Positions 15,814-24,975 of a stretch of 24,975 nucleotides of DNA are shown here, one piece after another; the stretch's first letter is position 1, and each line of letters begins with the position of its first letter. The translations under genes were made by a program, and so were the position numbers. The notes under the pieces were generated by a model. That model was not told the DNA's origin. It searched no databases and saw nothing but the letters and a program-made list of their open reading frames with translations. Origin of the DNA: a virus; the IMG/VR virus record IMGVR_UViG_3300021963_009767, positions 1 through 24,975 of that record; one strand, 5' to 3'.

Positions 15814-17211
15814 ATGCAGCCTAAGATAGTCGGCTTTGAGCACCTCCACCTTCACACCGACAACTCCCTCCTCGATGGTTATGGGATGGTGGAGGAATAT
15901 GCCCATCGCGCCCCCAAGATAAACCAGAAGTTCCTCACGGTCAGCGACCATGGGATGCTGGGTGCAATTCCGAGGCAGATCAGGGCGTGCGAAAAGGCGT
16001 GCGAGTCCAAAGGCAAAGACGCGCTTAGCCCGATCTTCGCCTGCGAGCTCTATGTCAACAGCCTGCAGCCGGAATCCGACAGCCTCGATGACGTGAGGGC
16101 TTTCATTTCCACCCTGGACGACTCCCAGAAGTCTAGGTTCAAGAGCAGCGCGCACCTTCTAGCCATCGCCTACAACGAAACTGGCTACAAGAACCTTGTC
16201 AGGCTTTCCTCATGGGGCTGGACCAGGGGCTTCTATGGTCGCCCTCGCGTCAATCACGAGCAGCTCCTGAAGCACAAGGAGGGACTTTTCTTCACGAGCT
16301 GCTGCTACAACAGTGAGATAGGCCGTGCGTTCGACTCGGGTGGCGAGGAGCTCGGGTTCGACATGGTCGAGCGCTACATCGAGATGTTCGGCAAGGATCA
16401 CTTCTTCCTTGAGATCATGCTGCTCGACTTCAAGAAGCAGAAACCCTATGACGCATTCATCATCAAGGCTCACCAGAAGTACGGACTGAAGGTCATAGTG
16501 ACACAGGATGTCCACTACTGCAACAAGGAGGACAGCAAGTACCAGAGGCTCATGCTGATGGTGCAGACCGGCAAGACCGTCAGGCAGATAGAGGAGGCCC
16601 TGCGCGAGAACAGCGGCTACGACGCGTTTGAGTTGCAGGACAGCAACCTGTGGATGAAGTCGGAGGAGGAGCTAAACGAGAAGTGGGTTTCCGACTACAT
16701 GGAGGTCGTTCCCTACGAGGTGTTCCAGCAGGCCAAGCTCAACACGGTCGAAATCTGCAACAAGGCCAAGGGCGTGAAGCTGGACAGGAGCCTCAAGCTG
16801 CCGAACATACCCGACGCCGATGATATACTGCGCGACGAGGTAAAGAGGGGCTTCTTCGCCAGGCGACTTCCCAAGAACAAGGTCTACCTTGACAGGCTTA
16901 AGGAGGAGCTTAGCCTCATCACGCGCAAGGGGTTCGCAAGTTACTTCCTAATCCAGAAGATGATGACAGACGAGGCTAGGCGCGTCTGCTCCGAGATCAT
17001 AGGTTTCGGCGACGGAACCCAGGCAGTCGGTCCCGGTCGTGGTTCTGCCGTGGGTGCGCTCGTCTGCTACTGCCTCGGTATAACCTCCGTCGATCCCGTT
17101 AGGGAAGGGCTGCTCTTCAGCCGATTCCTCAGCGAGGCCAGAGGTGGAAGGTCGCTTCAGTTGAGGTTCAGGAACATGGACCCGCTGCCGCCCGATCAAG
17201 CTTTCAGCTGA
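15814..17211 (+). CDS. dnaE: DNA polymerase III alpha, N-terminal piece (PHP and first half of palm)
   Basis: The 465-aa product matches the N-terminal part of DnaE-type replicative polymerases. It opens with the PHP domain: H-L-H-L-H-T-D-N-S-L-L-D-G at residues 10-22, V-S-D-H-G, A-C-E-L-Y, and V-T-Q-D-V-H-Y, so the metal-binding residues seem intact. The palm begins with Y-L-D-R-L-K-E-E-L and Y-F-L-I-Q and reaches G-P-G-R-G-S-A-V-G at residues 406-414 and L-L-F-S-R-F-L. Where bacterial DnaE then has the P-D-I-D-I-D-F catalytic aspartates, this protein has a short unrelated tail and stops. The matching catalytic part starts at 24631. Its stop lies within the convergent glycosyltransferase gene, overlapping by 16 bases. 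AAGGGCC precedes the ATG. Confidence 0.93.
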   Translation: MQPKIVGFEHLHLHTDNSLLDGYGMVEEYAHRAPKINQKFLTVSDHGMLGAIPRQIRACEKACESKGKDALSPIFACELYVNSLQPESDSLDDVRAFISTLDDSQKSRFKSSAHLLAIAYNETGYKNLVRLSSWGWTRGFYGRPRVNHEQLLKHKEGLFFTSCCYNSEIGRAFDSGGEELGFDMVERYIEMFGKDHFFLEIMLLDFKKQKPYDAFIIKAHQKYGLKVIVTQDVHYCNKEDSKYQRLMLMVQTGKTVRQIEEALRENSGYDAFELQDSNLWMKSEEELNEKWVSDYMEVVPYEVFQQAKLNTVEICNKAKGVKLDRSLKLPNIPDADDILRDEVKRGFFARRLPKNKVYLDRLKEELSLITRKGFASYFLIQKMMTDEARRVCSEIIGFGDGTQAVGPGRGSAVGALVCYCLGITSVDPVREGLLFSRFLSEARGGRSLQLRFRNMDPLPPDQAFS

Positions 17212-18023
17212 ATGGCTCTTGTGACCTCCCTGGGCACCACGGCGTTTTGCCTGATTCGTAGAACGCTGAAATTCTTCGGGTCGCAGCATGGCAGCGAGGA
17301 CGCTTTGTACCTCAACAACTCTGGCCTGCTAAAGACCCAAGACAGCATTTGGTGCTGCCAGTAAATCCTCCTGAATACCTTCTCCTCATCGGGGTACAGT
17401 AGGGTCATTCTAGGGTGGGAAATTGCCCCGGCGTAATGGCTTGTGCCCGTGTCGCAACCCACGAACATGTGAGACAACTCTATGATGCGGAATGTCGTTT
17501 GGATGTTGTCGCTTGCGAAGACGCCATCGGCTTCTTGCACGAGAGAGGCCTTGGCCTTGTCGATCACCATTAGGGAGTTGGGCCAGTGCCTCCTGATTTC
17601 CTTAAACACCTCCATGGCATTGGCAGGCGATAGCTCCCTGTCCTCGTTGTATTCGGCCTTAAGGCAGGGACAGAAAACGCAGTCGTACCTTGCCTGGCTG
17701 CCGCTGTGGCAAGAGTTTGATGATGTGTAGAAGCCCTCGTTCCTTAAAAAAGGCGCCCAGACCCAAAGGTTGAGCGGGTCGAACTTGGGAAGCCTGCGTT
17801 CATTGCCCCTTACGAACCTGACGATTCCGCTGGGGAACACTGCTGCCGCCGAAACCTTCGCGCATGCGTCCTTGTAGTCTATCTCAAGGCCCTTGTGCTT
17901 CAGGTAGGCCATCATGGCCGTAGTCTGTATCTCGTCGCCTATTCTGTTCTCGGGATGCTCGTGGTAGATGCCGTACTCCACGCTCTCCCAGTTGCTTTTG
18001 AACTCAAACCATATTTTTTCCAT
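17196..18023 (-). CDS. GT9-like glycosyltransferase (heptosyltransferase family)
   Basis: The 275-aa product ends with a GT-B fold signature of the GT9 family: M-F-V-G-C-D-T-G-T-S-H-Y-A-G-A, the counterpart of G-x-D-T-G-x-x-H-x-A-A in ADP-heptose transferases, followed by a strand and Y-P-D. The N-terminal half has G-D-E-I-Q-T-T-A near residue 30, where GT9 enzymes have G-D-x-x-x-T. A C-V-F-C-P-C cluster in the middle may bind metal. It starts at the ATG at 18021-18023 with GAGGGAG just upstream and overlaps the end of the DUF6065-like gene by 20 bases. Because hldE at 5970 makes ADP-heptose precursors, heptose transfer is a reasonable guess, but the donor is not proven. Confidence 0.8.
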   Translation of the reverse strand: MEKIWFEFKSNWESVEYGIYHEHPENRIGDEIQTTAMMAYLKHKGLEIDYKDACAKVSAAAVFPSGIVRFVRGNERRLPKFDPLNLWVWAPFLRNEGFYTSSNSCHSGSQARYDCVFCPCLKAEYNEDRELSPANAMEVFKEIRRHWPNSLMVIDKAKASLVQEADGVFASDNIQTTFRIIELSHMFVGCDTGTSHYAGAISHPRMTLLYPDEEKVFRRIYWQHQMLSWVFSRPELLRYKASSLPCCDPKNFSVLRIRQNAVVPREVTRAIQLKA

Positions 18024-18852
18024 CTGACTCCCTCGGCCTGTCATGGAGTCCTGAAAATGGGCAGCGGACTATTTTCGCTTCTGCATTTGGCAAACCTTGG
18101 TTGTCGAGTATCCTCTTTCGCTCCATGTAGAACGTGGTGGAGTCTTTGAAAGAATTCTCCTTGGGTTTCCCGAACTTTCTCTCGTTGTAACGCATCCAGT
18201 ACTCAAACACGTCATTTGACTCTTGGGTGTCCCTGTTCGCCTCTGACACCTCCAATCTCCAATCCGATGAGTAAGCCTCTCTTCGCATGGGTATCAACTG
18301 GGCTATCGGGCTCGTTTGGTTTATTCTGAATGACGCAGGCTCATTGGCCCTGTCGAAGACAAGGTTCATCCATATGTCATATTGCATCCAGTCGGTTTCA
18401 AGAACGCCGTCCATGACATGGAAGGGCTGCGAATGGTAATTTATTGGACTTTTGATGTGCAGGCACCATCCGGGTGGCGTCTTGAAGATCAGGCCGGTCC
18501 ACAGTTGTAGAACGTTCGGCTCGACGCTGCCTAGGGACATCTTCGTCCTGCCCGTCCCGAACGGGCACCACTTGTCCGGGTTCACGCCGTCCTCAGGCTT
18601 CACCAGCTTTCGCACCAAGTGGGCATCCTCGTCGGAGTTATAGTACTCGTCTAGGAACCTGACCCCGAACTTTTCGCCCGTCCACACGACGTCGAAGTCG
18701 GATGGAGGGTAAAGCCACCAGCCAAGCGCGTTTACCGTGCTGAAGGGGTGGCACCACTTCACGCCCTCCTTGTGTGCCGTGCCCCCAAGGGTCTTCTCGG
18801 CTTTTTGTATACGGCAGGCCTGTGGGTGAAGCCGGTAGACCTGTAGTGGCAT
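18004..18852 (-). CDS. DUF6065-like protein
   Basis: The 282-aa product resembles DUF6065, a family of unknown function found in bacteria and phages. It shows the family's landmarks: N-A-L-G-W-W-L-Y-P-P-S-D-F-D-V-V-W near residue 38, F-K-T-P-P-G-W-C-L-H-I-K-S-P near 125, a V-L-E-T-D-W segment, a strand M-N-L-V-F-D-R, and I-P-M-R-R near residue 200. I chose the ATG at 18850-18852; the frame stays open further upstream, but that part is the tmRNA. The A of this ATG is the last base (discriminator) of the tmRNA, so the two abut with a one-base overlap and no ribosome binding site outside the tmRNA. The C-terminus overlaps the glycosyltransferase gene. Confidence 0.78.
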   Translation of the reverse strand: MPLQVYRLHPQACRIQKAEKTLGGTAHKEGVKWCHPFSTVNALGWWLYPPSDFDVVWTGEKFGVRFLDEYYNSDEDAHLVRKLVKPEDGVNPDKWCPFGTGRTKMSLGSVEPNVLQLWTGLIFKTPPGWCLHIKSPINYHSQPFHVMDGVLETDWMQYDIWMNLVFDRANEPASFRINQTSPIAQLIPMRREAYSSDWRLEVSEANRDTQESNDVFEYWMRYNERKFGKPKENSFKDSTTFYMERKRILDNQGLPNAEAKIVRCPFSGLHDRPRESDGKNMV

Positions 18853-19200
18853 GGAGTTGAGGGGAGTCGAACCCCTGTCTTCAGCGAGAGACATCCGGAC
18901 CTCTACATGCTTGTTGCGTCGTTCGTTTTCTGCCTTCGGACCACGGCGCACAGAGGTCTCTAGGCAACACCAACATAAACTATCGCCACGCAAGTTGGCA
19001 GCGCGACGCTTGCGGGATTCACTTCGGGCCTTTGGGCGCTACCCGCTCGCCCCCTCGGCCCGTGGCAGGCCTAAATTAGGCAGCCAGGGAAAGAACAGTT
19101 TCGTCGTTTGTTGCGACAGCCGAATTTTTAAGAGGCCCTTCGGCCAACCTCTGCATGCCATCCGGGCGCCGCACCGTTGAATCGATACCGGAACAACCCC
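18852..19200 (-). ncRNA. ssrA: tmRNA (one-piece), tag ATNDETVLSLAA
   Basis: The 349-base minus-strand RNA rescues stalled ribosomes by acting as alanine tRNA and then as mRNA for a degradation tag. The 5' end GGGGUUG pairs with CAACUCC near the 3' end to form the acceptor stem, with discriminator A; CCA is not encoded. The T-arm is AGGGG, loop UUCGACU, CCCCU. The 5' segment G-C-A-U-G-C-A-G-A-G-G and the resume region G-U-C-G-C-A match known tmRNAs. The tag frame ends in the protease signal Leu-Ala-Ala. No permutation into two pieces is seen. It is transcribed with the DUF6065-like and GT9-like genes, and its promoter is at 19233-19260. Confidence 0.96.
19076..19114 (-). other. tmRNA tag reading frame
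   Basis: The resume codon GCA at 19112-19114 opens a 12-codon frame, ATNDETVLSLAA, closed by TAA at 19076-19078. Compared with the Escherichia coli tag (ANDENYALAA) it keeps N-D-E near the start and ends in L-A-A, the signal read by ClpXP-type proteases, but differs in the middle. Confidence 0.93.
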
Positions 19201-19207
19201 GTTTTGT

Positions 19208-19227
19208 CGGGAGTAATTTTTCTCCCG
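19208..19227 (-). other. Hairpin in tmRNA precursor leader
   Basis: CGGGAG pairs with CTCCCG around an eight-base A/T-rich loop. The predicted transcription start from the promoter at 19233-19260 falls at about 19226, so this hairpin would form the very 5' end of the tmRNA precursor, upstream of the expected RNase P cut at 19200. The stem is seen; its role in stability or processing is inference. Confidence 0.5.
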
Positions 19228-19232
19228 GCGAC

Positions 19233-19260
19233 ATTATATATGTAACACGGGCCGAATCAA
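19233..19260 (-). promoter_or_regulatory. Sigma70-like promoter for the tmRNA operon
   Basis: On the minus strand TTGATT (19255-19260) and a perfect TATAAT (19233-19238) are separated by 16 bases, which is near the sigma70 optimum. Transcription should begin at about 19226 and read through the tmRNA into the DUF6065-like and GT9-like genes. The same AT-rich core may also serve the divergent gene at 19277. Confidence 0.72.
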
Positions 19261-19276
19261 TCCAAATGGAGAAATC

Positions 19277-20191
19277 ATGGGATACATTTCATTTCACGAG
19301 TATGTGGACAAGAATAGCAAGTCCCCCAAGAAGGGCGACAAGTCGCCGAAAGCAAAAACCGCAGTTGTCGCCGACTACGACGGTCCCATGAAGGATTCGC
19401 CCGAGCTTGCGAAGATGCCACCCGATGCTGGCGGAGTCGGCCAGTCGGGTAAGGTCACCCCCTATAAGGGCGGGAAGGACGCCGCTGACCCCAACAAGGG
19501 CAAGTTGGTGGACGGCCTTGCGAAGAAGCCAGGCAAAGAGGGCATGGGTGAGCTCGGAAAGCCTGAGAAGGTTCTGGGCAACTACCCCTCGATCAAGACA
19601 TCGGAGTGGATCGATAGCCACAAGGGCCTGTCGCTCTCGGAGTTCGCCAAGAAGGTCAGGGAGAACAGGTTGTCCGGAGTGGAGAACCCCAGCCGAGCCT
19701 ACGAATCTATCAAAGAGACATTCGATGTTTGCAAGAAGAACGGGTCCTATGTGATGGACGTGGTTCTTGAGATGAGGCGCGCTGGGCTGGCCGGCACCTT
19801 CGTTTCTGTCCTCGCCCAGCAGCCGGAGTGCATCAACGTCATCGCACACATGATGGAGAACGACGAGAGCTTCGCCAGGAAGCTGAGCATGGCTCTTGAA
19901 GAGATGGTCGGCCCTCCGGTCGGTGGCGACGAGGAGATGGAAGACGATCGCGAGGAGATGGGCGATGAGCCTGTTGAGGGCGAGGCTGGAGAGTCGGGCG
20001 AGGATGACGATGAAGACGCTGAGGTCGGGGATGCAGAGGCCGAAGGAGAGGACGAGCTTTCCGATGACGGCGAGGGGGACGAGGTAGAGGACGCAGAGAT
20101 GGAGGTCGAGGTTGAGCCAGCCGAGAAGCCGATGAGCAAGGCTAAGGACAACCTCCAGAAGATGCTCATGAAGATGATGGGCCACCGATAG
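19277..20191 (+). CDS. Putative virion protein with long acidic region
   Basis: The 304-aa product has no recognised enzyme domain. The first 95 residues are basic and rich in Lys, Gly, Ser and Pro; residues 100-205 look like a folded helical domain; about 210-285 is a highly acidic Glu/Asp/Gly/Ala tract; and the end is a short basic, methionine-rich helix. The opening I-S-F-H-E-Y-V faintly resembles the capsid-targeting leaders at 3743, 4198 and 8024 but lacks an L-x-E cleavage site. A GGAG lies in the leader eight bases before the ATG. The gene is alone between the divergent tmRNA promoter and a strong terminator, suggesting its own expression control. A head or scaffold role is a guess. 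Confidence 0.72.
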   Translation: MGYISFHEYVDKNSKSPKKGDKSPKAKTAVVADYDGPMKDSPELAKMPPDAGGVGQSGKVTPYKGGKDAADPNKGKLVDGLAKKPGKEGMGELGKPEKVLGNYPSIKTSEWIDSHKGLSLSEFAKKVRENRLSGVENPSRAYESIKETFDVCKKNGSYVMDVVLEMRRAGLAGTFVSVLAQQPECINVIAHMMENDESFARKLSMALEEMVGPPVGGDEEMEDDREEMGDEPVEGEAGESGEDDDEDAEVGDAEAEGEDELSDDGEGDEVEDAEMEVEVEPAEKPMSKAKDNLQKMLMKMMGHR

Positions 20192-20218
20192 TCAGTTTTG
20201 CCCAAAAGTTTGATATGC

Positions 20219-20245
20219 AAGACCCCCTCTAGCAGGGGGTCTTTT
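20219..20245 (+). terminator. Rho-independent terminator
   Basis: A perfect 10-bp stem (AAGACCCCCT with AGGGGGTCTT) and five-base loop CTAGC lead into a short T-run. It ends the acidic-protein gene 28 bases after the stop. Confidence 0.93.
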
Positions 20246-20248
20246 GTT

Positions 20249-20254
20249 TATAAT
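20249..20254 (+). promoter_or_regulatory. TATAAT box upstream of the GT2-methyltransferase gene
   Basis: A perfect TATAAT lies four bases after the terminator and 29 bases before the next start codon. The -35 position overlaps the terminator stem and shows no consensus. The arrangement repeats the terminator-TATAAT layout before prkA. Confidence 0.6.
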
Positions 20255-20283
20255 TGTTCGTCCATTCCAGAAAAGGGTGAGCA

Positions 20284-21510
20284 ATGAAGATATCAGTTTT
20301 TACTCCAACTCATAATCCGAAATATCTGAATAGGCTTTATGAGTCTCTCAAGGCTCAGACATCATCCGACTGGGAGTGGGTGGTGGTCCCCAACGGCAAC
20401 TGTGTTGTAAGCTTGCCCAGCGATCCACGCATCAAGGTGGTGGCCACGAATTCCAGCACCAATATTGGTTACCTAAAGAAGTTTGCATGCGCGCAAGCCA
20501 CAGGTGACGTCTACATGGAGGTTGATCACGATGACGAGCTTTTCCCCGATGCAATAGCGGAGTGCGCCAAGGCCTTTTCGGACCCCACCGTGGATTTTGC
20601 CTACTCCAACTGCTGCGACGTGACCGAAGGATACAAGCCAAGGGTGTTCAGCGAGACTTTTGGGTGGCTCAACCGGCCCTGCAAATTCAAAGAGCACGAG
20701 CTCATGGAAATGGTCTGCTTTGAGCCGGATCCTGCGAGCATCAGCAAGATTTGGTTTGCCCCCAACCACTTCAGGGCATGGAGGGCGTCGTTCTACAACC
20801 GCATCGGCGGCCATGATGAGTCGATGGACATCCTTGATGACCAGGACATTCTTTGCAGAACTTACATCCATGGCAAGATGCACCATATCGACAAACCCCT
20901 TTATGTCTACCACATCCATGAGGGCAACACCTGCTATGGCGACAAGAACGCCAAGATTCAGGACATGACCCTAGAGCTTCACGACAAGTACATCTACCAA
21001 CTCGTTGAGAAGTGGTGCGACCTCAAGGGGCTTAGGAAGATTGACCTGTGCGGCGGCCACAGCAAGCCGCCCGGCTATGAGAGCATCGATCTTTTGAACG
21101 GCGATATTGTCCACGACCTCAACAAGCCTTGGCCCTTCAAGGACGGCGAGGTAGGTTTGTTCCGTGCACACGACGCGCTGGAGCACCTTTCGGACACGAT
21201 ACACGTGATGAAGGAGGCGCACAGGTGCCTTGCGCCCAAGGGTTGGTTCCTTACTTTTACCCCCTCCACCGATGGTCGTGGAGCCTTCCAAGACCCGACT
21301 CACGTCAAGTTCTTCAACAGCAACAGCTTCTGGTACTACACCAAGAAGGAGCAGGCCCAGTACATAGGAACGCCGGTGAGGTTCCAGCTGAACAGGATCA
21401 AGAACTACTACCCAAATGACTGGTGCAAGATGCACGACATCGTGTATGTTAAGGCCGATCTCTACAAATTCGACGAAACCGGGAGAACCCCGGGGCTTAT
21501 TGAGATCTGA
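20284..21510 (+). CDS. Fusion of GT2 glycosyltransferase and SAM methyltransferase
   Basis: The 408-aa product has two domains. Residues 1 to about 235 are a GT2 (GT-A fold) transferase: S-V-F-T-P-T-H-N at the start, N-I-G-Y-L-K-K near 60, and the metal-binding D-H-D-D at 81-84, then L-D-D-Q-D near residue 185. From about residue 250 a class I methyltransferase begins with I-D-L-C-G-G (SAM loop), E-S-I-D-L, D-A-L-E-H-L-S-D and L-A-P-K-G-W-F-L-T-F-T-P. One polypeptide could add a sugar and cap or modify it by methylation, but acceptor and order are unknown. An AAGGGTGA site precedes the ATG by about four bases. A 94-base gap without a recognisable gene follows. Confidence 0.9.
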   Translation: MKISVFTPTHNPKYLNRLYESLKAQTSSDWEWVVVPNGNCVVSLPSDPRIKVVATNSSTNIGYLKKFACAQATGDVYMEVDHDDELFPDAIAECAKAFSDPTVDFAYSNCCDVTEGYKPRVFSETFGWLNRPCKFKEHELMEMVCFEPDPASISKIWFAPNHFRAWRASFYNRIGGHDESMDILDDQDILCRTYIHGKMHHIDKPLYVYHIHEGNTCYGDKNAKIQDMTLELHDKYIYQLVEKWCDLKGLRKIDLCGGHSKPPGYESIDLLNGDIVHDLNKPWPFKDGEVGLFRAHDALEHLSDTIHVMKEAHRCLAPKGWFLTFTPSTDGRGAFQDPTHVKFFNSNSFWYYTKKEQAQYIGTPVRFQLNRIKNYYPNDWCKMHDIVYVKADLYKFDETGRTPGLIEI

Positions 21511-21604
21511 GCTGCGCAGGCAACTGGGGCGGGCAGGCCTTGCGACCGCTGGGCTTGTCCGCAATTGTTTCAACTGCCTCCTTGACGGGGGCTAGGACGA
21601 AGAT

Positions 21605-22573
21605 ATGCCGTTGTCTAAGAGTCGAATCGCAAGAATAAAAAACATCATTAGGGGAAGCGGATTGTCTGACTATCAGGTTTTCCCGGTATCCGATCAGGAC
21701 GGGGTATCCGACAAGCTCACGGATTGCGTTCAGTGGACTTCCTCGGACAACAAGAATTTTATACCCACCTCTAGGACTGTTGAGAGGCTGCCCCCAGGCA
21801 CCTACGAAATCGGCACGAACCAGGCAAATGGCCTGTTCTTTGAGAAGGTCCCAGTCTTGGACAACGATCTGGTGATGTTCCCAGAGAGCAACACCGAGAA
21901 GATCGTGGAGGAGATTCGCCGCTTCTGGGATCGCGAGGAGATATACCGACGTCACAGACTTGCCTTCAAACGGGGGATACTTCTGTACGGACCCCCGGGG
22001 TCTGGCAAGAGCTGCACGATTCAGTTAGTCATGAATGACGTCGTGGAGCGGGAAGGCATCGTCATCAACTTTCGCGAGGCCGACCTGTTTGTTGCAGGCA
22101 CCAGAAAGCTTAGAGAGATTCAGCCCGACACACCAGTGGTCGTGCTGATGGAGGACCTTGACTCAATATTGCAAGACACCGACGAGAGTTCAGTGCTCAA
22201 TGTTCTCGATGGCGTGAACCAGATCGACAAGGTGGTTTTCCTTGCCACAACCAACTACCCCGAAAGGCTTGGCGAAAGGGTCATCAACAGGCCCAGCAGG
22301 TTCGACAAGCGTTTCAAGATCGGCTATCCGGACGAGAGGACCAGAAGGATATATTTCGAGCGAATCATCGGCGACAAGCTGATAAGCGATCTGAAAATCG
22401 ACTTGGACCTTTGGGTCAAGAAGACCGACGAGTTCAGTATGGCTCACCTGAAGGAGCTATTCGTGGCTGTGGCGATCCTTGGGGACGACTTCGACGAGGC
22501 TGTTGAAACTTTGATTTCGATGAAGGAAGATGGCATTAGCTCTAGGGACGACGCAAGGAAGATGGGCTTCTAG
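21605..22573 (+). CDS. AAA+ ATPase
   Basis: The 322-aa product is an AAA+ ATPase. An N-terminal domain of about 110 residues has no clear match. The core has Walker A G-P-P-G-S-G-K-S at residues 129-136, Walker B V-V-V-L-M-E-D-L-D at about 178-186, sensor 1 A-T-T-N, and an R-P-S-R-F-D segment that supplies arginine fingers, in an order like BCS1 or proteasomal/FtsH-type AAA proteins. No protease motif is present. It is cytoplasmic and probably a remodelling or assembly machine. AGGACGAAG precedes the ATG. The carbamoyltransferase gene begins nine bases after its stop, so the two are co-expressed, although no functional link is evident. Confidence 0.9.
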   Translation: MPLSKSRIARIKNIIRGSGLSDYQVFPVSDQDGVSDKLTDCVQWTSSDNKNFIPTSRTVERLPPGTYEIGTNQANGLFFEKVPVLDNDLVMFPESNTEKIVEEIRRFWDREEIYRRHRLAFKRGILLYGPPGSGKSCTIQLVMNDVVEREGIVINFREADLFVAGTRKLREIQPDTPVVVLMEDLDSILQDTDESSVLNVLDGVNQIDKVVFLATTNYPERLGERVINRPSRFDKRFKIGYPDERTRRIYFERIIGDKLISDLKIDLDLWVKKTDEFSMAHLKELFVAVAILGDDFDEAVETLISMKEDGISSRDDARKMGF

Positions 22574-22582
22574 GGGAGAGAA

Positions 22583-24136
22583 ATGGAAATCGCCGTATAC
22601 GGCTGGCACGACTCCTCTGTCTGCGTCAAGGACGGTGGGAAGTATTTTGTCTATGAGTTCGAGCGTTTCGCCAACAGGCGTTACGCAGTCATGACGCAGC
22701 ACTATCCTTCGGCCGCACACCCTCAAGGCGAGGTCGTGGACTTTTTAAGCTATATCAAACACCGGCACCATGTCCCGCACATTGACTTGGTGCTCTACGA
22801 CCAGATATTCGACTGCGACCACGACACATTTAAGTCAGTATTCAGCGTGGGGCAGTACCGCAAGTTCGGCCATCACTTCGCCCACGCATATGGAGCTTAC
22901 GCACAGTCCCCATTTGATGAGTGCTTTGTCATATCTTACGACGGCTCTGGGGAAAACGAGAACGGCAGCCAGAGCAGCTTCACGGTTTGGAGCGCAAGCC
23001 CCGATGGCGTCGTGTTGCTGAAGGATTTCCAGCCTTACTTCTCCCACAGCCTGGGCAACTGCTACCTAGCCCTGACCGTTCCGCTGGCATCAATAAAGAA
23101 GCCCGTCAAGGACCCGGACAACTACTACTTCTACGGGGGCAGCGCAGGCAAGCTCATGGGCCTAGCCGCATTCGGCACCCCGGTAGAGGAATGGAAGCCG
23201 CACTTCCGTGCATTCTTCGACGGAGGACGAATTTGCGATGAGGAGAGCCTCAGCGATAGCGTTGGCGTCGACATAAGGCGCTTCAACCACTTGCATGGCC
23301 AGAAGGAATTCGATTTTGCCGCCACTATTCAATGGGCCTTTGAGGACAAGTTCTTCAGGACCTTCGAAACCTTGGGTATTCCTGAAGGCTCAAAAATCTG
23401 CATGACTGGCGGTTGCGCTCTCAACATAAATGTCAACCAGAGGCTGGCTGACATGGGCTACAAGGTCTTTGTTCCGCCAAACCCCTCCGATTGCGGGCTG
23501 TCGCTAGGGATGCTAAGCGCGCATCACGGCGACAGGAATATCGACGTCACCTATTCAGGCTTCGATATCCTTGACCACGAAGTTCATGGGCTCCGCAGCG
23601 AGCCGATGGACATAGCCGGACTCGCTTCCAGTCTGTTTTTCCGTCGCAAGATAGTGGGCTTGATACAGGGTCCCTCTGAATGTGGGCCTAGAGCTTTGTG
23701 CAACCGCAGCATAATTTGCTATCCGGATATTCCCATGCTCAAGGAGAGAATCAACTCTGACATCAAGTTCAGGGAATGGTTCAGGCCTTTTGGGGCCGTC
23801 GTGAGGGCCGAGGACATTGACAGGTTCTTCGTTAACGGCAGAGAGTCGAGATTCATGAGCTTCTGCCCGACCCTTCGCGAAGAGTATCGTTTGCCCAGCA
23901 TCACCCACATAGACGGCACCTGCAGGGTCCAAACTGTTTCGGCATCGCAAAATCCTCTGGCGCACTCTCTGCTTTCGCAACTGGAGAACCTCGGGGCTTT
24001 GCCGATTCTTCTCAATACCAGCTTCAACATAAAGGGCAAGCCAATTCTCACTAGGCTCTCTGATGCTGCCGCAGTGCTTAACGAAACAAGGCTTGAGGGT
24101 TTCTATTACGAGGGCAGGTTTTACGAGAGGGCATAG
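22583..24136 (+). CDS. NodU/CmcH family carbamoyltransferase
   Basis: The 517-aa product transfers a carbamoyl group from carbamoyl phosphate, through a carbamoyl-adenylate, to a hydroxyl, as in nodulation factors and antibiotics (NodU, TobZ, CmcH). It has G-W-H-D-S-S near the start, the metal-binding H-H-F-A-H-A at residues 97-102, Y-D-G-S-G-E, G-K-L-M-G-L-A-A-F-G, T-G-G-C-A-L-N-I-N-V-N, and the C-terminal (YrdC-like) E-C-G-P-R-A-L-C-N-R-S-I and N-T-S-F-N-I-K-G segments, all in family order. It is slightly shorter than most relatives. The AGGGGAGAG site is strong. It may carbamoylate the sugar assembled by the nearby glycosyltransferases; the acceptor could also be a modified nucleotide. Confidence 0.95.
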   Translation: MEIAVYGWHDSSVCVKDGGKYFVYEFERFANRRYAVMTQHYPSAAHPQGEVVDFLSYIKHRHHVPHIDLVLYDQIFDCDHDTFKSVFSVGQYRKFGHHFAHAYGAYAQSPFDECFVISYDGSGENENGSQSSFTVWSASPDGVVLLKDFQPYFSHSLGNCYLALTVPLASIKKPVKDPDNYYFYGGSAGKLMGLAAFGTPVEEWKPHFRAFFDGGRICDEESLSDSVGVDIRRFNHLHGQKEFDFAATIQWAFEDKFFRTFETLGIPEGSKICMTGGCALNINVNQRLADMGYKVFVPPNPSDCGLSLGMLSAHHGDRNIDVTYSGFDILDHEVHGLRSEPMDIAGLASSLFFRRKIVGLIQGPSECGPRALCNRSIICYPDIPMLKERINSDIKFREWFRPFGAVVRAEDIDRFFVNGRESRFMSFCPTLREEYRLPSITHIDGTCRVQTVSASQNPLAHSLLSQLENLGALPILLNTSFNIKGKPILTRLSDAAAVLNETRLEGFYYEGRFYERA

Positions 24137-24137
24137 C

Positions 24138-24623
24138 GTGTCGAAGATTTTGCTTGATGAGGAGTACATCCTCGTTTTGGACACGGACAGTTTAAGTATC
24201 GATTTCTATCGGGAGATGTGCTCGTTCTGCACGGGCCACGATGCTGACTCATGTCGGAGCATGGTTGAGTCCGATCGTTTCCATGATGATTTTCAGGATG
24301 AAAATCCATTTTCGGTGAATATCAAGTACAAGGACGACGGAGAGGGCGGCGAAACCCCTTGCTCTGTCTGGCTCAACAAACGATACGGCTGCGACGAGGA
24401 CGGCAACTTCGGCTTGTTAGACGAGAACAACTTCCAGGCTTACGGCTTCCCTGCGCCCATGAGCGTCGGTATATTCTTCCTGACTGAGCCCACCCAGGCC
24501 CAGATAGACTTGGTTCGGTCAAGGGCAGAGGCGTTTCTGGCGGAGCGCAAGCCCTCCCCGAAGCTTGAGTCCCTTCGCCTAATCACCCATACCAAGTACG
24601 GCGAAGAGCGCGTCCTGAGCTAG
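24138..24623 (+). CDS. Unknown 161-aa acidic protein
   Basis: I recognise no family. The product is acidic, with several D/E clusters, three cysteines near residues 28-40 (C-S-F-C-x7-C) and a repeated D-E-D-G / D-E-N pattern around residues 88-98, compatible with metal binding but not diagnostic. No membrane segment. I chose GTG at 24138 with GAGAGG seven bases upstream, one base after the carbamoyltransferase stop; the frame upstream lies within that gene. Its stop overlaps the ribosome binding site of the DnaE C-terminal piece, so the genes are co-translated. Confidence 0.68.
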   Translation: MSKILLDEEYILVLDTDSLSIDFYREMCSFCTGHDADSCRSMVESDRFHDDFQDENPFSVNIKYKDDGEGGETPCSVWLNKRYGCDEDGNFGLLDENNFQAYGFPAPMSVGIFFLTEPTQAQIDLVRSRAEAFLAERKPSPKLESLRLITHTKYGEERVLS

Positions 24624-24630
24624 GAGAGCC

Positions 24631-24975
24631 ATGAGCAAGGAATCGTTCGTAGCCATTTGCGAGGACGCGCTCAGGTCGAAGGGCTTGCACGAGAACCCAA
24701 GGTTTGTCAAGCGCTTCCGCTGGGAGATCGACGAGATCCTTGGCAAGGAGGACCATCAATACTTTCTCGACCTTGTTGACAGCAAGACGCGCTACCCCAT
24801 GAACCAGAACAACCTTCTGGTTTGCTGGCTGCTAGGCATAGTTCCCGACTTCGACATAGAGAGGGAGCCTGCCAGCGTCTTCACGGGCGACTTGCCCGAC
24901 ATCGACATCGACTACCTCCCTGAAATCAGGGAGTACCTCAAGAACAGGTGGTCGATTGAAAGATTTGGCTCTGAG
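24631..24975 (+). CDS. dnaE: DNA polymerase III alpha, catalytic piece (continues beyond window)
   Basis: At least 115 residues are visible before the window ends. The opening E-S-F-V-A-I-C-E-D-A-L-R-S-K-G-L corresponds to the E-S-x-L-x-x-L-C-x-E-G-L helix before the DnaE palm, then F-V-K-R-F-R-W-E-I and Y-F-L-D-L-V-D match the next palm strands. The G-P-G-R-G-S motif is missing at its expected place (Q-N-N-L-L-V-C-W-L-L-G-I instead), but L-P-D-I-D-I-D-Y follows, with D90 and D92 at the positions of catalytic D401 and D403 of the E. coli enzyme, and I-R-E-Y-L-K-x-R-W after it. There is no PHP domain; that lies in the gene at 15814. AGGAGAG is three bases before the ATG. Confidence 0.9.
   Translation, partial: MSKESFVAICEDALRSKGLHENPRFVKRFRWEIDEILGKEDHQYFLDLVDSKTRYPMNQNNLLVCWLLGIVPDFDIEREPASVFTGDLPDIDIDYLPEIREYLKNRWSIERFGSE

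Follow-up and report, generated by a model that had tools for sequence, protein, structure and literature searches.

A C-family DNA polymerase gene divided into two complementary genes in a group of large phages

Phage enzymes that are made from two genes, and whose products reassemble, have been described before. The nearest precedent is gene 43 of Aeromonas phages 25 and 44RR, split into 43A and 43B; the two phage 25 products co-purify, and the T4 topoisomerase gene and nrdA of phage Aeh1 are further split genes of this kind (PMC2988022, as far as the accessible part of that paper goes). In the jumbo phage MIJ3 the polymerase PolB also occupies two open frames (PMC6892783, accessible in part), and cyanobacterial DnaE likewise consists of two pieces (PMC3919608, also in part). 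Here we describe a division of DnaE, the alpha subunit of the C-family DNA polymerase III, in the viral IMG/VR record IMGVR_UViG_3300021963_009767, whose complete 24,975 bp are referred to below as the window. Two polymerase open reading frames on the plus strand, listed at 15814-17211 and 24631-24975 and separated by approximately 7.4 kb (17211 to 24631), are the N-terminal half (N-half) and the start of the C-terminal half (C-half) of a DnaE (Table 1), which confirms the preliminary description of this DNA as carrying a divided polymerase gene.

Pfam analysis of the window N-half revealed a PHP domain (E 1.5e-32, residues 10-202), and PF07733 (PolIII-alpha) was matched only over positions 3-98 of 260. 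The second gene was unsettled from the record alone because it overruns the record end, which cuts it after 115 codons. A close relative, IMGVR_UViG_3300020172_005639 (120,522 bp), encodes an N-half that is 100% identical and a C-half that is 95% identical over its first 115 aa; the gene spacing there is also about 7.4 kb. Instead of ending soon after the point that corresponds to 24975, the second gene runs on to 914 aa in this relative (locus L066), where it encodes the catalytic aspartates, fingers, an OB fold and a helix-hairpin-helix. This complete C-half matched PF07733 over positions 100-259, and DNA_pol3_finger and HHH_6 over the Pfam cut-off; the PF07733 domain is thus divided between the two genes. 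Complete C-halves of 908-915 aa were found in four further relatives. Across the pair, the C-family hallmarks are present (PHP followed by PF07733, GS motif, three aspartates, fingers, helix-hairpin-helix, OB fold); the single polypeptide chain usual for the family is replaced by two genes in the window, in L002 and in relatives.

Table 1. Features of the divided dnaE and of its surroundings in the window.
Feature	Coordinates	Strand	Evidence
DnaE N-half, 465 aa: PHP nuclease-like domain and palm start	15814..17211	+	ORF; Pfam; relatives in 63 IMG/VR loci
PHP domain, residues 10-202	15841..16419	+	Pfam; column counts; alignment to M. tuberculosis DnaE1
Palm start of N-half, residues 339-443	16828..17142	+	PF07733 match; similarity to C-half residues 1-46
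GPGRGS (GS motif), residues 406-411	17029..17046	+	Column counts in 36 N-halves; 58 loci
N-half tail replacing the catalytic strand, residues 441-465	17134..17208	+	RGG-bearing in 58/58 loci; low confidence in lone-chain model
DnaE C-half, first 115 of ~914 aa	24631..24975	+	ORF; 95% identical to L066:10001-12745
Second, diverged palm-start copy, C-half residues 1-86	24631..24888	+	hhalign to N-half; profile alignment to E. coli PolIII-alpha
N-Q-N-N at the GPGRGS position, residues 58-61	24802..24813	+	Column counts, 17 C-halves
Catalytic PDIDID, residues 89-94	24895..24912	+	Column counts; aligned with E. coli and Taq PD(F/I)D(V/T)D strand
tmRNA, tag DETVLSLAA	18849..19200	-	ARAGORN; Rfam RF00023, 105.5 bits
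AAA ATPase	21605..22573	+	Pfam AAA 2.1e-14; 52% identity over 324 columns to L146:13159-14223

In IMG/VR, 63 N-half loci (L002-L064) were identified, 12 of which were flagged as repeats of another locus. The contig ends inside the N-gene in five of them, and the end of the gene is visible in the other 58 (46 distinct open frames). In all 58 the N-gene stops after SRF(L/M)S and an RGG-bearing tail, and in none of the 58 is a PDxDxD strand present; as had been noted from the window alone, the first gene thus ends after GPGRGS and before the catalytic aspartates, where the PF07733 match stops at position 98. Since 58 loci share this stop, the one at 17211 is not a sequencing error. That a sequencing or assembly error split a full-length gene has in its favor only that the window is a fragment, and the same two genes and the same stop recur in dozens of metagenome contigs, with other genes in between; we reject this explanation, whose probability is practically nil.

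In 31 of the 63 loci the C-half was located downstream of the N-half and in the same orientation, at a distance of about 0.9-9.3 kb, and in the contigs of L019, L021 and L028 this distance is 11-13 kb; for L047 just a late C-half piece was observed, on the opposite strand. Thirty contigs were searched whole. The C-half was found in 25 of these, and the five without it end soon after the N-gene (L003 after 9.0 kb, L004 0.7 kb, L022 8.7 kb, L035 1.0 kb and L062 ~10.4 kb). Counts of PF07733 places were made on larger contigs and records, the completeness of none of which is established. All 15 split contigs of 98-459 kb have exactly two such places, one per half, covering profile positions 2/18-98 and 98/100-259, whereas the three unsplit records each show a single continuous match from 2/3 to 259. 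The separation seen in the window recurs in these large contigs. A complete C-family polymerase elsewhere, which had been named as one of three possible refutations, was found in none of the 15 split contigs (these may be fragments, and some are near-copies, e.g. G004/G005), and we reject it as far as fragmentary contigs allow. Among 14 more records, one of which (G031) had been counted before, eight have one place per half, two the N-half place only and three one continuous place, and the two places in G045 are both parts of its N-gene, which bears an intein; for G037, the place assigned to the C-half covers profile positions 3-259. We conclude that the split is fixed in this large-phage group.

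The conservation of the N-half was evaluated in an alignment of the window and 35 of the 63 N-loci, from which near-duplicate, truncated and insert-bearing genes were excluded and in which some rows start late. The PHP columns H46, E78, H114, C164, D232 and H234 are invariant in all 36 N-halves, and D21 is present in all 32 rows with a letter at that column. H12 and H14 were counted in 17 and 16 of 36, low numbers explained by the many rows with a late or interrupted start (see below). We take H12, H14, D21, H46, E78, H114, C164, D232 and H234 to be metal ligands. G406, R409, G410 and S411 of the GS motif occur in 36/36 aligned N-halves, and P407 and G408 in 34. Across the loci with a visible gene end, G-x-(G/A)-RGS is present in 56 of 58, and the remaining two (L047, L056) carry an intein exactly at GPGRG^S. 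The median dN/dS was 0.097 for the PHP domain and 0.089 for the N-half palm segment (from the 13 pairs that a saturation filter retained out of all pairs of the 36, which are not independent of one another), i.e., the palm segment is as constrained as PHP. The N-half, palm segment included, is under purifying selection.

In an alignment of 17 complete C-halves, N58, N60, N61 and L62 are present in all rows in place of GPGRGS, and the GS motif is absent from all 17; L064 and L180, both outside this alignment, have NxHN instead. P89, D90, D92, D94 and K247-F248-D249 are invariant in 17/17. D90, D92 and D249 are the three catalytic aspartates, and their columns align with those of Taq and E. coli. 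The gene at 24631 accordingly lacks PHP and GPGRGS and has the aspartates of PDIDID, in agreement with the first reading of the window. The C-half profile aligns to E. coli PolIII-alpha 315-890, on the C-half side from residue 20 on, and because the alignment begins at 315 the C-half carries its own palm start. Profile-profile comparison with hhalign aligned N 334-379 with C 1-46 (E 1.8e-4, with a probability of only 48%). The palm-start copy proposed for each gene is thus real yet diverged, and the suggestion of complementary losses with a duplicated segment is borne out by the alignments, with the GS motif only in the N-half and the aspartates only in the C-half. By this comparison of profiles and columns, the two halves share a diverged palm segment and show reciprocal losses of motifs.

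Single-chain relatives of the pair were found in the phage record LR756511.1 (595 kb; 1179 aa) and in the IMG/VR loci L177, L178 and L179. Their unsplit genes are each one open frame of 1183-1195 codons, and all four combine GPGRGS with PDVDVD or PDADVD in one chain. LR756511 DnaE was the best match in the phage collection; its identity is 55% with the N-half of the window and 47% with the L066 C-half, across 75% of the latter. The domain order of the single-chain proteins is the same as in the split pair, but they have one palm start, without a duplicated segment. In the C-half tree all 22 split rows are on one side of a branch (100/100) and the four unsplit rows are not together; the N-half tree leaves one versus two origins of the split undecided, and in both trees L182, on a very long branch, is the sole outgroup. 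In a palm-only tree, the N-half copies group with unsplit palms (97/95) and the C-half copies are on a very long branch. Because this tree has 93 columns and so long a C-half branch, it does not settle the order of duplication and split. The duplication, or an overlap, would have arisen at the time of the split, the C-half copy then being free to change.

Each chain was also modelled alone. The N-half model (mean pLDDT 78.1) matches Thermus (Taq) and E. coli PolIII-alpha up to residues 461 and 398 (3e0d, Z 29.4, rmsd 7.7, 374 aligned), the matched part ending just before the aspartates. The C-half model (mean pLDDT 78.4) was matched from residue 126 on (7pu7, Z 23.8, rmsd 9.5, 523 aligned), and OB folds were matched at residues 770-889. 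As most C-half structural matches begin at about residue 118-126, the C-half palm-start copy and the D90/D92 strand were placed by sequence only. In the N-half model, confidence is reduced at the GS loop and the tail (408-411, 437-465); in the C-half model, it is reduced near the catalytic strands (83-100, 195-205, 214-254). Such low confidence in the palm core would be expected if each chain lacks its partner.

Taken together, we estimate at roughly 0.75 the probability that the two genes encode two subunits of one C-family replicative polymerase, the chains of which associate without splicing and with the GS loop acting in trans. We infer the following order of events. A single-chain DnaE like that of LR756511 would have been divided, with the palm-start segment kept in both products. 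The N-half would have retained PHP and the nucleotide-binding GS motif, a new tail replacing the catalytic strand, and the C-half would have retained the three aspartates, the fingers, the helix-hairpin-helix and the OB fold, its GS motif becoming N-x-N-N. In the physically associated pair, used as a replicase, the N-half would contribute PHP, and its palm segment would supply the GS loop in trans to the active site of the C-half, which would be responsible for catalysis and DNA binding. That the replicase is an obligate two-protein one, formed by duplication of the palm start and then reciprocal loss so that each palm is defective in a different way, seems to us probable, with somewhat less confidence.

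The chief rival, which we consider unlikely, is a self-sufficient C-half that uses N-x-N-N in place of the GS motif, the N-half being a separate PHP nuclease with a leftover palm that acts as a proofreading or structural subunit. The C-half does possess all three aspartates, its own palm-start copy and an invariant replacement motif, and the PHP residues of the N-half are conserved. Yet the GS motif of the N-half, which has no adjacent aspartates, is invariant in 36/36, under purifying selection and a target of inteins, and C-family palms belong to the nucleotidyltransferase fold, of which GS/GG is a signature motif (PMC11646218, in its accessible part).

Several points weigh against two subunits sharing one active site. 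The palm-start copy of the C-half could prevent that of the N-half from docking, and N-x-N-N might stand in for the GS motif in a C-half that is catalytic by itself. The low palm-core confidence of the models may equally result from shallow alignments, of 36 and 17 sequences, and the models have other low-confidence stretches as well (N 1-22, 268-270 and 323-328; C 120-126, 867-869, 892-899 and 909-914). The C-half scores under the NCBIfam cut-offs for known DnaE groups. Finally, a short A-family polymerase gene (429-478 codons) occurs in 16 of 18 large records, split and unsplit (e.g. G029:C1:10849-11670), and by its predicted product a second polymerase exists in them. It is this short PolA-like gene that could be taken to mean that the two halves are degenerate remnants of a polymerase being lost, with replication by the A-family or a host polymerase; the open frames, the conserved motifs and a dN/dS of about 0.1 across a diverse clade make this highly improbable. 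No B-family polymerase was detected in any of the 18 large records, and a B-family replicase in place of the split DnaE is thereby rejected for them.

Post-translational ligation of the halves through a split intein, the situation in cyanobacterial DnaE, was also considered. No intein family was matched in the window N-half, in the first 115 aa of its C-half or in the 914-aa L066 C-half (Pfam, and for L066 also NCBIfam), consistent with the earlier remark that no intein is visible at either end. Some relatives do have split inteins, but these interrupt the C-half (L007, L009, L017, L026); at the junction itself none was matched in the window or L066, the N-half tail is conserved and, with a palm start in each chain, the ligated protein would contain about 50-90 residues twice. 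We therefore reject a split intein at the N/C junction, the likelihood of which is close to none. Cyanobacterial DnaE, moreover, is cut later in the protein and not before the catalytic strand.

Inteins are found at other places in relatives, several of the Pfam and NCBIfam matches being under the curated cut-offs. Contiguous inteins lie in the N-half exactly at PHP and GS motifs, namely at GPGRG^S (L047, L056), at PIFA^CELY or IFA^CELY (L050, L029) and at D^CHY (L062, L064); in C-halves, inteins lie at GFNx^SH (L007, L064). LAGLIDADG-like matches were obtained within the N-half inteins of L029, L050, L062, L064, L047 and L056 (for L062 below cut-off). Inteins prefer active-site motifs, and their position exactly inside GPGRG^S (L047, L056) argues that the N-half GS motif is still vital. 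Split inteins cut the C-half near residue 345 (RPG..) in L007, L009 and L017 and at GFNx^SH in L026, which places the polymerase of these four in three genes (L007:15537-20477, L009, L017, L026:12189-16516), with about 1 kb between the split C-half pieces in L007, L017 and L026.

The genes between the halves are much as described at first: ARAGORN, Rfam and Pfam identified the tmRNA, the glycan genes, the AAA+ ATPase and the carbamoyltransferase. Besides the first and third of these (Table 1), the interval holds a DUF6065 gene, the carbamoyltransferase and a family 2 glycosyltransferase, part of which is methyltransferase-like. A relative of the AAA ATPase (52% identical) adjoins the unsplit dnaE of LR756511, just upstream, indicating a shared neighbourhood. 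A tmRNA is also located near the N-half in L007, L013 and L040 (three of six loci scanned), there on the strand of the polymerase.

In relatives, not in the window, the N-gene can be interrupted close to its start, after GFEHLHLH, by TAG or TGA plus 2-5 bases (5, 6, 7 or 8 nt in total), and the frame resumes at (S/T)DFS or similar. Examples are L007:9959-10030, L021:9959-10020 and L033:8170-8235, with 23 more of L002-L064, plus L060; for L060/L212 the resumed frame soon meets another stop. The interrupted type accounts for 26 of 62 classed sequences (the window and 61 of the 63 loci), with 12 distinct upstream 40-mers. All 12 distinct interrupted sequences have a 12-bp stem (G-U allowed) directly before the stop, compared with 4-9 of 12 pairs in the 21 distinct uninterrupted genes (six in the window) and 7-11 in a class with longer hairpin inserts. 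When folded alone, three interrupted sequences gave z values of -3.7 to -4.9 vs. -0.4 for the window. Among 13 sequences, three pairs of the stem change on both sides; 0 of 500 shuffles reached the covariation score and the both-sided cells, and the number of both-sided pairs was reached by 136 and that of pair types by 499 of them, in a test in which related sequences can exceed shuffles without any structure. A pattern scan of IMG/VR returned 41 stretches, 40 of them long enough to examine: 27 are the N-gene, mostly in contigs known already and all with 12/12 pairs, and 13 are other sequences, with 2-7 pairs. A scan for hairpins before stops in L001-L144 and the window was unspecific, with 153 hits, 65 of them with open frames on both sides; the hits include non-polymerase places, and one lies inside a continuous frame in the sister contig of the window.

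Simple frameshifting is disfavoured by the gap lengths, among which all three phases are represented, and TAG shows no obvious recoding, as it terminates 29 of the 189 long frames in 20 of these loci. In T4 gene 60 the take-off codon is followed by a stop, and there is a take-off stem-loop (PMC5009743, accessible in part). As the layout of the interrupted N-genes resembles that of T4 gene 60, programmed ribosomal bypassing is the leading idea, and these starts are candidate bypass sites by analogy. Longer inserts near the same place occur in L013, L016, L026 and L057 (spacing 55 or 56 nt vs. 15); they have a strong inverted repeat, lie two codons further on and differ in length modulo 3. In L030, L035 and L037, 6 nt (CTTTAA/CTCTAA, with TAA at the end) are inserted in frame in the N-half, between DFSV and LDGY. 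A group I intron is present in the PHP start of the N-half in L040:9767-9992 (Rfam RF00028, 90.7 bits), close to the bypass-like site, and a similar 242-nt spacing at the PHP start of L054, by spacing alone, points to another probable group I intron.

Similar pieces may already be catalogued in PHROG families. PHROG 405 (DNA polymerase, 1190 positions) was the best match of the N-half, and 7513 (461 positions, annotated as of unknown function) and 13169 (463 positions) were matched over most of their length; PHROG 11165 (782 positions) matches the C-half start weakly (E 0.057). BcepF1 was considered as a possible known split; the annotation gives its polymerase as a single gene of 2871 bp (078), upstream of which lies a short PolIII-like gene (076). 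Among the matches listed in the literature search, with one likely source outside the comparison, no title names a C-family split and none describes a duplicated palm with reciprocal losses. In PMC7162821 dnaE appears a single time and the word "split" never, and the accessible part of PMC12926913 names no phage DnaE split.

Replicative polymerases divided through the active site are rare. A C-family palm composed of two chains, if true, would test how an essential active site can be divided between genes, with the natural single-chain relatives representing the state before, and what role the GS motif has in DnaE. It would also bear on the relation between the division of replication genes in phages and their invasion by inteins, introns and similar elements, and may yield a two-part polymerase usable as an on/off tool.

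The phage polymerase precedents compared here are B-family enzymes. Aeromonas 43A/43B resembles the pair of the window in that two genes encode one phage enzyme, the products reassembling in the Aeromonas case; the accessible part of its source (PMC2988022) describes neither a duplicated palm segment nor active-site motifs that were lost reciprocally. The PolB of MIJ3 differs in having a putative split intein and an HNH gene between its two frames (PMC6892783, in part), and cyanobacterial DnaE in being split by an intein (PMC3919608, in part). Split phage enzymes are thus already known, and among the matches listed, the C-family case with its duplicated palm and reciprocal losses appears to be new.

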